A stretch of 30,680 nucleotides of DNA, taken from a virus. The stretch's first letter is position 1. Every line of letters starts with the position of its first letter. Positions 19,605 through 24,701 of this stretch are shown here, piece after piece. The notes beneath the pieces are model-generated. The model searched no databases and was not told the origin of the DNA. It was given only the letters and a program-made list of their open reading frames with translations. Made by a program: the position numbers and the translations under genes. The stretch is taken from positions 1 through 30,680 of IMG/VR virus record IMGVR_UViG_3300044630_000876; one strand, written 5' to 3'.

Positions 19605-20600
19605 AAAAAACTACAAATGGGTTTAAAACACGATCAAATCAAGGATCATTTTTTTTCATCGCCATTATCAATGAAACATTTTTCGGAAAAATACCACGAA
19701 ACGTATGGTTATGTAGATGCAAAGCAGATGAGAAAAATGATGAGCCGGTACAATATTTTGTCACGTGTAAGGGCTGAAAAAACATTGGCTGATTTACCAA
19801 AAGCACAAATCGAATCCACAACATTTTTCGAATTAGAAAATTTTGGAATTGAGGAATCAATTGGTAAAGAATACAAATCAGCACGATTGCCTGATCATTT
19901 AAAGAAAATTGGCATATTATCAGACATTCACGTGCCGTTTCATTCTGTTGAAGCAGTTGTGTGCGCAATTAAGTATTTAAAGGAACAAAAAATTGATTGC
20001 TTGTATCTGAATGGAGACACTTTTGACCAATATTCCATCAGCAGACACGAACGTGATCCCGATCTTAGGGATTATCCAAAGGAAGTAGAAATGTGCCGTA
20101 ATTTCCTGCAAACATTGCGTGGTATATTTCCAACAATCCCGATTTATTTTAAGGCAGGCAATCACGAAAACAGGCATCAAAGATATATTAACCAACAGGC
20201 AGAAGAATTTGCGCAGTTGCACGAATTGCAATTTGAGCAATTTTTTAGATTGGATGTGTTAGACATTAAATATATTCCTGATTGGCAAGGAATGGAAATG
20301 GGCGATTTGTTGGTGTGTCACGGTCACGAATTGATGGCAGGTGGAATGAATCCATCACAAAGCACGTTTAATAAAACATTCTGCAATACGTTGATTGGAC
20401 ACGTACACAGGACAACAAATACCACCAAAAAGACAGGTTTTAAAGAATACATCCACACGTATTCCACAGGATGTTTGACACAATTATCCCCAAAATACTA
20501 TCCTTTTGCACAGCACAATCACGGGTTTGCATTAGTAATGATAACCGATGGGAAAGCAAAGGTTGAAAATATAATGATAAAAGATGGGAAAATTGTGTAG
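19590..20600 (+). CDS. Calcineurin-like metallophosphoesterase
   Basis: All metal-site motifs are present in this 336-residue protein: ILSDIH (Asp112, His114), NGDTFD (Asp143), AGNHEN (Asn191, His192), CHGHE (His246) and GHVH (His271, His273). The first 100 residues are helical and may bind DNA or a partner. Phage members of this family are often assumed to be nucleases or phosphatases in DNA metabolism, but the substrate cannot be read from sequence. It stands alone, flanked by terminators, between late and early genes. The ATG at 19590 is the longest start; 19617 (MGLKHDQIK) is possible and would avoid a promoter-like element. The missing nine residues precede any conserved motif. Confidence 0.87.
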   Translation: MANFEKKLQMGLKHDQIKDHFFSSPLSMKHFSEKYHETYGYVDAKQMRKMMSRYNILSRVRAEKTLADLPKAQIESTTFFELENFGIEESIGKEYKSARLPDHLKKIGILSDIHVPFHSVEAVVCAIKYLKEQKIDCLYLNGDTFDQYSISRHERDPDLRDYPKEVEMCRNFLQTLRGIFPTIPIYFKAGNHENRHQRYINQQAEEFAQLHELQFEQFFRLDVLDIKYIPDWQGMEMGDLLVCHGHELMAGGMNPSQSTFNKTFCNTLIGHVHRTTNTTKKTGFKEYIHTYSTGCLTQLSPKYYPFAQHNHGFALVMITDGKAKVENIMIKDGKIV

Positions 20601-20648
20601 TTTTGTATCGGTAGTAAAGGTTTAATGATTCATACAGTTGTTGTTTAG

Positions 20649-20680
20649 AAAGGGCAGATCCGATGGGTTTGCCCTTTTTT
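20649..20680 (+). terminator. Intrinsic terminator after phosphoesterase gene
   Basis: AAAGGGCA (20649-20656) pairs perfectly with TGCCCTTT (20670-20677) around a 13-base loop, followed directly by a T run. It lies 48 bases after the phosphoesterase stop and isolates the early region. Confidence 0.88.
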
Positions 20681-20696
20681 ATTGCACTATTTTTTT

Positions 20697-20733
20697 AATA
20701 GGTTTTTAATAGGTAACCTATTTTTTACCTATT
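20697..20733. repeat. Symmetric array of four AATAGGT half-sites
   Basis: Two AATAGGT copies (20697-20703, 20708-20714) are separated by TTTT; after one central A, two ACCTATT copies (20716-20722, 20727-20733) are again separated by TTTT. The half-sites on each side are exactly 11 bases apart, about one helical turn. The array lies in an AT-rich gap upstream of the early promoter. It is a candidate operator for a dimeric regulator or an initiator-binding origin element. Confidence 0.85.
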
Positions 20734-20776
20734 TTTTGACCGTTAAATAAATAATTGATATTTTTTTGATTTATTT

Positions 20777-23527: not shown

Positions 23528-23681
23528 AACAAACGAATTGGGGTACACGTTCAATCAGGTTTGGGCGCATATCGCAAAAGAATTAGAAAATAATTTAGAA
23601 AAATTAAATAAAATTCAACCTAAACAACAAAAATATGGTAACGTTTCAGCAATATCATCAGGCCAACCCGCATCTTTATGA
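23508..23681 (+). CDS. Possible small protein (57 residues)
   Basis: ATG at 23508 opens a Lys/Asn-rich helical frame (MKTKTNKTNELGYTFNQVWA, then HIAKELENNLEKLNKIQ), running 47 bases into the next gene. The N-terminal 40 residues look protein-like while the overlapping end (VSAISSGQPASL) does not. It fills an otherwise empty 107-base gap. Uncertain. Confidence 0.4.
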   Translation: MKTKTNKTNELGYTFNQVWAHIAKELENNLEKLNKIQPKQQKYGNVSAISSGQPASL

Positions 23682-23913
23682 GTTGTACAAGGCCATTGCA
23701 ATGCAGTTAATTCAGCAAAATCGCAAGGTAATTGGATCAGGATACATATTCCAAAAAATGCGTTTTGAATTTCAGTTCACCACCAATGGCGATCCTTTCA
23801 AAATCAACAACAATTTTGCACCAATGTATGCACGTAAATTTGTTTTGGAGCATCCGCAATTTGGACACCTTTTTAAATTTAAGCAGCTAAAAGGTAGTTT
23901 ATTAATATCCTAA
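23635..23913 (+). CDS. Unknown phage protein of the FKINNN type (92 residues)
   Basis: This protein starts FQQYHQANPHLYELYKAIAMQ and contains FKINNNFAPMYARKF with a following HPQFGHLF. The pattern of NP, then an I-x-R/F segment, then FK-NNN-YAR and a terminal hydrophobic segment is widespread in phage genomes, near replication or nuclease genes, but without known activity. It ends directly before the structured-RNA promoter. Confidence 0.75.
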   Translation: MVTFQQYHQANPHLYELYKAIAMQLIQQNRKVIGSGYIFQKMRFEFQFTTNGDPFKINNNFAPMYARKFVLEHPQFGHLFKFKQLKGSLLIS

Positions 23914-23916
23914 TAT

Positions 23917-23924
23917 TATATTTG
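23917..23924 (+). promoter_or_regulatory. -7 promoter element (TATATTTG) for the structured RNA
   Basis: A perfect TAnnTTTG match directly after the previous gene. Transcription from it would start near 23931, exactly at the first base of hairpin 1 of the RNA element. A TTTA at 23898-23901 is a poor -33 candidate. Confidence 0.55.
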
Positions 23925-23930
23925 TGATGT

Positions 23931-24020
23931 AATCAGCGAAAGGGGTGAGAGTCTTTCGGTGATTAATTGGGTTTAAAAACCAACAAAGCCGGTCTGTTCT
24001 CTCACACAGCCGGCTTTTTT
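23931..24020 (+). ncRNA. Structured RNA with kissing hairpin loops and a terminator
   Basis: Hairpin 1: AATCAGCGAAAG (23931-23942) pairs with CTTTCGGTGATT (23953-23964) with a single G-G mismatch, loop GGGTGAGAGT. Hairpin 2 is weak: GGTT/AACC near 23970-23981. Hairpin 3: AAAGCCGG, bulged T, CTGT (23985-23997) pairs with ACAGCCGGCTTT (24006-24017), loop TCTCTCAC, followed by T6. GTGAGAG in loop 1 (23945-23951) is perfectly complementary to CTCTCAC in loop 3 (23999-24005). The RNA may be a free small RNA of about 90 nt or a leader that controls the replication initiator gene whose ATG is at 24030. No known RNA family was recognised. Confidence 0.75.
23985..24020 (+). terminator. Strong intrinsic terminator before the initiator gene
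   Basis: Eight outer pairs (AAAGCCGG/CCGGCTTT), a bulged T at 23993, four inner pairs (CTGT/ACAG), an eight-base loop and TTTTTT. It lies just 10 bases before the initiator ATG, so read-through control here would set initiator level. Confidence 0.88.
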
Positions 24021-24029
24021 ATTTTCAAA

Positions 24030-24701
24030 ATGGCAAAATTAAAAATTGCAAGCAGGTACGCAACGGTGCCAAATGAGTTATTAAATGACAATTTAATTTC
24101 TTTAAAATCAAAAGGTATGTATGCCTTTATTCAATCAAAGCCTGAAAATTGGGAATTTAGTGCGGAAAAAATTAGCCGATTATTAAGGGAAGGTTTGCCT
24201 AGTGTTAAATCATCTTTGCAAGAATTAGAAGAAAATGGATACCTAGCAAGAAGAAGGTATCAAAATTCAAAAGGTTTTTGGGAAGTTGAATATATCCTAT
24301 TTGAGAATCCTATGGTCGGAAATCCTACGGCGGAAAACCTAACATTAGGAAATCCTACGCAGGAAAATCCTACATCAGGAAAACCATCAAATAATACTAA
24401 ACAAGAATCCACTAAACAAGAATCTATTAAATCAATTATAGAAAATAAGAAAAACGATTTTCGAAATTTTATTGATTCGCATTCATATTTATTAGGTGAC
24501 CAATATGAATCATTCTTTGAATATTGGACAGAATCAAATCAGAAAAATGGGAAACTAAGATGGGAGGATCAAAAGTTTTTTAATATTGAAAGACGGATTA
24601 GCACTTGGATGGCTAACAAAAATAAATTTAATAACAATGGATCATCAGACACAAAACTTGGTACAAGTGCAGCGAGAATGGCTGCCCTCAGAAATTTTTA
24701 G
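24030..24701 (+). CDS. Winged-helix replication initiator (lambda O / DnaD-like role)
   Basis: From the ATG at 24030 this is 223 residues. Residues 1-90 form a helix-turn-helix/winged-helix domain: YATVPNELLNDNLISLKSKGMYAFIQSKP, in part, with LPSVKSSLQELEENGYLARRR as recognition helix and wing. Residues 92-121 are six five-residue repeats of the type (G/E)NPTx, followed by two TKQES repeats; both are encoded by 15-bp DNA repeats. The C-terminal part (FFEYWTESNQKNGKLRWEDQ, then RISTWMANK) resembles the end of phage replisome organisers. It should bind origin iterons and load the replication machinery with the next gene. A TTG at 23967 would extend it through the terminator and is rejected. Confidence 0.82.
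   Translation: MAKLKIASRYATVPNELLNDNLISLKSKGMYAFIQSKPENWEFSAEKISRLLREGLPSVKSSLQELEENGYLARRRYQNSKGFWEVEYILFENPMVGNPTAENLTLGNPTQENPTSGKPSNNTKQESTKQESIKSIIENKKNDFRNFIDSHSYLLGDQYESFFEYWTESNQKNGKLRWEDQKFFNIERRISTWMANKNKFNNNGSSDTKLGTSAARMAALRNF
24303..24425. repeat. 15-bp iterons inside the initiator gene (origin candidate)
   Basis: Six in-frame 15-bp units run 24303-24392 with core GGAAATCCTAC or variants (GGAAAACC, GAAAATCC). Two further units of ACTAAACAAGAATC(C/T) run 24396-24425, followed by an AT-rich stretch. Iterons next to AT-rich DNA in the middle of an initiator gene are the layout of the lambda origin in gene O. Confidence 0.7.

Follow-up and report, generated by a model that had tools for sequence, protein, structure and literature searches.

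In plasmids, antisense attenuators of the pT181/pIP501 type act in the leader of the gene for a replication initiator, where kissing hairpins precede an intrinsic terminator, and recognition hairpins of the pT181 type carry an internal loop or mismatch and variable recognition sequences that lead to orthogonal specificity (PMC3753616). The put RNA of phage HK022 is a phage leader of about 70 nt in which two stem-loops behind an early promoter affect termination (PMC9378689). By analogy, these two systems appear to be the nearest functional counterparts of a leader RNA element at 23917-24029 of the window (the whole 30.7-kb virus record that was analysed), between a small conserved gene and a replication initiator gene. 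The phage RNA resembles pT181/pIP501 in its potentially kissing hairpins, its terminator, its place in an initiator leader, its mismatched recognition hairpin, and its variable codes. However, there is no sequence relation, and the partner loop of the plasmid systems lies on a counter-transcribed RNA, whereas the phage RNA bears both loops, one of which is the loop of the terminator. A minus-strand TAATTTTG is present at 24034-24041, inside the initiator gene, but this region is replaced by unrelated genes in relatives and is thus not conserved. With put, the phage RNA shares the form of a stem-loop phage leader right behind a promoter; put differs in having no terminator of its own and in acting on distant terminators via RNA polymerase, and the accessible account of it mentions no loop-loop code. 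In neither system is the loop of a terminator known to pair with a loop further upstream in the same molecule, and the phage RNA is regarded as a new variant of leader-RNA control and not as a member of the pT181 or put families.

Long-range loop pairing is also found in the rep leader of IncB/IncI-alpha plasmids (pMU720 and ColIb-P9), where a leader loop pairs with a site immediately ahead of rep. This pseudoknot differs in that it exerts translational control, involves an antisense RNA, and has a partner site that is not a terminator loop. In the packaging RNA of phi29, complementary loops join copies of one RNA. Quaternary loops likewise join copies of one RNA in the RNA-only complexes of ROOL, GOLLD, and OLE (PMC12286853). 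The leader RNA differs from these in size, position, and structure, and it shows no link to packaging genes; the packaging genes of the window phage, a portal and a large terminase subunit of the Terminase_3 family, are those of an ordinary tailed phage, which sets it apart from the phi29 case. A covariance-model search of Rfam 15 gave no match for the window or for 12 relatives (types I, IB, II, and III), in line with the original prediction, which had recognised no known RNA family; the sub-threshold match with the lowest E-value was RcsR1, at 19.8 bits against a threshold of 60. No description of such an RNA was found in the open literature on loop-loop attenuators, small RNAs of Bacteroidota phages, and flavophages.

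Besides a replication region, the window encodes the portal, the large terminase subunit, and an ERF recombinase; nearly all of its genes are on the plus strand. Relatives infect Flavobacteriia. An origin signal was not found by GC skew. Upstream of the RNA lies a small conserved gene of phrog_13625 (23635-23913, plus strand), the usual 5′ neighbour of the RNA (102 loci), and the promoter box of the RNA stands directly behind its stop codon. Downstream, a replication initiator gene (24030-24701, plus strand; HTH_36/DnaD-like according to Pfam and PHROGs) begins with an ATG at 24030, 9 nt past the end of the terminator U-run. Elsewhere in the window, a second box, TAGTTTTG, and a terminator (stem 20652-20674, U6) occur at 20598-20680 directly after a metallophosphoesterase gene and are kept in relatives; the loop of this terminator matches the 5′ end of the leader RNA by about 6 bp only, and the conservation of this match is not clear. 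AATAGGT/ACCTATT repeats (AATAGGTTTTTAATAGGTAACCTATTTTTTACCTATTTTTT) at about 20690-20740 recur in several relatives and could be operators or iterons.

All parts of the RNA lie on the plus strand, and base-by-base re-reading placed the box, hairpin 1, weak hairpin, bulged terminator, and U6 where they had originally been described. The -7 promoter box TATATTTG, of the Bacteroidota type, is at 23917-23924; the window itself has a weak -33 element, a point against the leader reading given below. A TAnnTTTG-like box stands at the same distance from the RNA in 119 of 122 relatives, and the predicted transcript start, at about 23929-23931, agrees with this fixed box-to-hairpin spacing; the predicted RNA is about 92 nt long. 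Hairpin 1 (23930-23965; TAATCA g CGAAAG / CTTTCG g TGATTA) consists of two 6-bp stems flanking one G.G mismatch, which is G.G or A.G in 79 of 87 relatives, and a 10-nt loop at 23943-23952. A small, weak middle hairpin follows at 23967-23983; it averages 4.3 bp in relatives compared with 3.2 in shuffled linkers, which is weak evidence for it. The terminator hairpin (23985-24017) has one bulged U and an 8-nt loop (23998-24005) and runs into the U6 stretch at 24015-24020; this arrangement of a G+C-rich hairpin and a U-run, typical of an intrinsic terminator, extends over 23985-24020 and is conserved in relatives. The fold z-score of the element is -3.9 to -4.7. The pairing strand of loop 1, GTGAGAG (23945-23951; GU-NNN-AG, code GAG), and that of the terminator loop, CTCTCAC (23999-24005), are perfect complements over 7 nt, as had been claimed. 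No further copy of this 7-mer occurs on either strand of the window, and the loops have no extra partner there.

Upstream of initiator homologues, both sides of the loop pair change together, as GUGAGAG/CUCUCAC, GUGGUAG/CUACCAC, GUCGGAG/CUCCGAC, and GUAGGAG/CUCCUAC. In order to avoid selection for pairing, IMG/VR was scanned with the pattern GGGTNNNAG...CTNNNACRCA...GGCTTTTT, in which NNN was left free on both sides. Among 56 distinct matches, all 52 with the family hairpins were perfectly complementary, compared with none of the four non-family matches. The identical pattern gave 33 matches in 84,980 bacterial genomes, none of them complementary and none real, and a prophage or bacterial origin was rejected. 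The single weak match in 397 genomes of one flavobacterial family (L317) proved by eye to be an ordinary terminator in which the partner loop is absent. Because one early detector had selected for pairing, its loci were not used as pairing evidence, and reliance was placed on the free-middle scans and on covariance-model matches.

In an alignment of 31 distinct relatives, the loop helix is paired in 217 of 217 cells, and the three of its seven columns that vary do so doubly each time. Hairpin 1 is paired in 99.1% of cells, with double changes in 10 of 11 pairs, and the terminator stem in 99-100%. None of about 101 distinct covariance-model matches (the E-values of which are rough) has a broken loop pair, and they fall into six loop codes: AGG (56), CGG (17), GAG (14), GGT (8), CAG (3), and GGA (3). 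At least 24 changes of code are required on the tree built from the neighbouring gene. In one pair of loci with near-identical flanks (L064/L125), an A-U to C-G double transversion has occurred in the loop pair with no wobble intermediate, and a similar double transversion separates L138 and L143, which are among the most alike RNAs. The comparison of related phages that had been suggested as a check thus found compensation in every relative, and a compact RNA with two pairing loops before a replication initiator is supported by comparative sequence. The loop pairing is real and under selection, as judged from this covariation, which would fit a kissing complex, an alternative nested helix, or pairing between two molecules alike.

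The two main stems contain 29 G-U cells versus 10 A-C cells, an excess indicating that the plus-strand RNA is what is selected. A DNA-level element, such as origin repeats or an operator, would suit a position adjoining the initiator gene, and chance might also be invoked; both are extremely improbable in view of the strand-specific G-U tolerance, the U-run, the promoter box, the hairpin architecture, and the convergent types described below. A DNA repeat or operator was rejected on the excess of G-U over A-C. Chance was rejected on the scans, the covariation, and the results of a generic detector, which combined a promoter box, a loop, a complementary terminator loop, and a T-run. This detector gave 160 matches in 5.7 Mb of real sequence and 1 in 1.44 Mb of shuffled sequence, a ratio that expresses specificity and not frequency, since most real loci in the 5.7 Mb had been chosen by pattern match. 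The window itself gave one match, which bears out the statement that the loop complementarity is hard to explain by chance.

The same architecture was found in RNAs of other types. Type II, at the same site in other phages, has different stems and swapped polarity, with a pyrimidine loop in hairpin 1 and a purine loop in the terminator. The complement is present in all 24 pattern-scan loci that have upstream sequence, with four loop sequences, and the loop pair GTTCTCAC/GTGAGAAC is present in L292 and L304. In 11 distinct rows every pair is formed, and four of eight loop pairs are doubly changed; the sequences suggest that type II reached this site by convergence. Type III (CUGCAAC/GUUGCAG) occupies a second genomic place, before a NUMOD4/HNH homing endonuclease gene in L028 (3060-3160), and occurs also in L283 and L307-L316. 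Both L028 and L283 combine it with a type I or type II RNA of another code; in L028, a type I RNA with GUCGGAG accompanies the type III RNA with GUUGCAG.

With regard to cultured phages, nucleotide searches with the window region or an AGG-type RNA gave no real match, and relatives were detected by architecture only. Their RNAs are unrelated to the window RNA in sequence and likewise lie ahead of replication genes. In whole genomes, Flavobacterium phage 11b has one site, CGGGCAGG/CCUGCCCG, before a gene of phrog_19415, a family that the window initiator matches as well, in its C-terminal part, and Polaribacter phage Freya_1 has one, GGUGGAA/UUCCACC, before genes for a DnaD-like loader and a DnaC-like loader. 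The gene product Freya_1 gp55 (NC_062746.1, 36748-37638), carries the annotation of a transcriptional regulator; its matches are DnaD-like helicase loaders and replisome organisers. One site each was also found in the replication regions of Danklef, Cellulophaga phi13:2 and phi19:3, Elemovirus A and E (B-D being identical to A, and F to E), Muminvirus tooticki, and Lillamyvirus sniff, hemulen, and snork. In tooticki, sniff, hemulen, and snork, the leader is followed by a hypothetical gene homologous to the initiator-like gene of 11b, and a primase comes next. Searches for the architecture in Cellulophaga phi12:1 (whole genome), Riemerella CRP6, and Bacteroides LoVEphage were negative.

Through the end of the promoter box, identity between Elemovirus A and E is 98%, and in the RNA behind it falls to 52%; the loop pairing is preserved despite a completely different code. 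Between Elemovirus A-D (L324, L332-L334) and E-F (L325, L335), the RNA and initiator have been swapped as a single cassette, and its joint falls exactly at the end of the promoter box. The Danklef and Freya RNAs are identical, and the sequences diverge directly past the U-run. From such comparisons, the edges of the RNA look like recombination joints.

The placement of the RNA bears on its function. The start codon of the next gene lies 3-18 nt behind the RNA, mostly 7-13 nt. The next ORF (at least 70 aa) begins no more than 20 nt from the leader terminator in 126 of 145 loci, compared with 3 of 51 for other terminators on the same contigs. This gene is an initiator in 115 of the 145 loci and otherwise an HNH gene or a small ORF, and the initiators belong to at least three N-terminal families (HTH_36-like, Lin1244_N/phrog_2562, and phrog_6251). 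In L010 (2381-3001), an HNH endonuclease gene has been inserted between the RNA and the initiator, and its start codon is again just past the U-run. The predicted order is that of a cis-acting leader, with promoter, structured leader, terminator, and gene following one another and no intervening promoter, and any transcription of the downstream operon, whether begun at the box or farther upstream, would have to pass the leader terminator. Chiefly for this reason, a leader or attenuator is preferred over a free small RNA, the two readings originally offered: the attenuator is favoured because the terminator is about 10 nt from the start codon, which leaves no space for another promoter, and the free small RNA is less favoured. 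As a whole, that interpretation is partly supported. An independent small RNA directed at messages of the host or at other messages of the phage, with the loop pairing merely compacting and stabilising it, could account for the RNA having its own promoter and terminator, and its targets would lie outside the window, where the loops find no other 7-nt partner. Such an RNA is nevertheless very unlikely: the fixed gap of about 10 nt to the next start codon and the constant co-orientation would go unexplained, the loops are already occupied by self-pairing, and besides the loops no conserved unpaired seed was recognised.

It is moderately probable that the element serves the replication operon of the phage as a leader RNA acting in cis, in which the loop pairing would tune terminator read-through. 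Comparative sequence shows that a promoter box starts the RNA at hairpin 1, that the transcript ends at an intrinsic terminator, that the loop of this terminator pairs with the loop of hairpin 1 by 7-9 bp, and that the next start codon, usually of a replication initiator, is no more than about 10 nt away. According to the model, polymerase would make loop 1 first, and the emerging terminator-loop segment may pair with it before the 3′ arm of the terminator exists. The long-range helix would be coupled to terminator folding and may thereby set the fraction of read-through into the initiator gene, each terminated round would leave a compact RNA of about 92 nt, and the variable middle of the loop pair would keep pairing specific to each phage lineage. 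In the type I prefix lacking the terminator 3′ arm, the loop-loop helix has an energy of -15.5 kcal/mol versus -15.3 for hairpin 1 plus the small hairpin (93 RNAs). The helix is better by 2 to 12 kcal/mol in the prefixes of 11b, Freya, elemo, tooticki, phi13:2, and type II, and beats hairpin 1 in all seven other RNAs tested besides the window. From these prefix energies, the long-range helix is expected before the terminator and coupled to its folding. With the full sequence, the hairpin/terminator state wins, except in 11b.

The prefix energies also bear on a classical attenuator, in which a nested helix of the loop strands would break hairpin 1 and hold the terminator 5′ arm, allowing read-through until a signal arrives. 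The nested helix equals hairpin 1 in energy in type I and is clearly favoured in the other prefixes, and the same covariation would be predicted. On the other hand, the nested state is about 9 kcal/mol worse with the full type I sequence, no covariation is seen between the 3′ arm of hairpin 1 and the terminator 5′ arm (which hardly varies), and complementarity beyond the loops is not consistent; this form of control is considered unlikely. Minimum-energy folding showed real competition in the prefix but no clear mutually exclusive antiterminator, and the pairing is compatible with the terminator hairpin. Since the two can coexist, the model of a cis-acting leader does not fix the sign of the effect, that is, whether pairing promotes or hinders termination.

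In a rod model, a straight intramolecular kissing complex of about 90 A does not fit a linker of about 66 A with the middle hairpin folded, which suggests that such a complex is incompatible with hairpin 1 and the middle hairpin both being formed. A fit would be obtained if the complex were bent by nearly 90 degrees, if the lower stem opened, or if two RNAs formed a two-fold dimer, and the misfit leaves room for a dimer. Alternatively, copies of the RNA of about 92 nt may act in trans, kissing a second copy (a double-kissing dimer) or the nascent leaders of other genomes, so that the RNA concentration would report copy number and set initiator read-through, with codes like plasmid incompatibility groups. 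One RNA bears both complementary loops and would be able to self-pair in trans, a two-fold dimer may suit the rod geometry better than a straight monomer with all hairpins, and the location before initiators resembles plasmid antisense control. In addition, the loop codes are discrete and never intermediate, and one phage (L028) can carry two RNAs with different codes. Pairing in cis predicts the same covariation, however, and the ATG-adjacent placement requires no trans action; trans recognition is thus a possible but doubtful alternative. It is a rather speculative proposal that the RNA, self-complementary and of sense polarity, monitors its own concentration, its terminated copies pairing with the nascent leaders of sister genomes and metering initiation by copy number. 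The extension of this proposal, that hypervariable matched codes separate co-infecting lineages in the manner of incompatibility groups, is just as tentative.

Read as a cis-acting leader, the RNA is probably the switch that turns the replication genes on or leaves them off. The design, in which the loop of a terminator recognises a loop further upstream by a variable code, is common to at least six cultured genera or lineages of Flavobacteriia phages and to a large set of lake phages, and it is apparently undescribed. The cultured hosts Flavobacterium, Polaribacter, and Cellulophaga make the RNA testable. The loop codes that occur in nature differ from one another and are candidates for direct use as parts of orthogonal RNA regulators.
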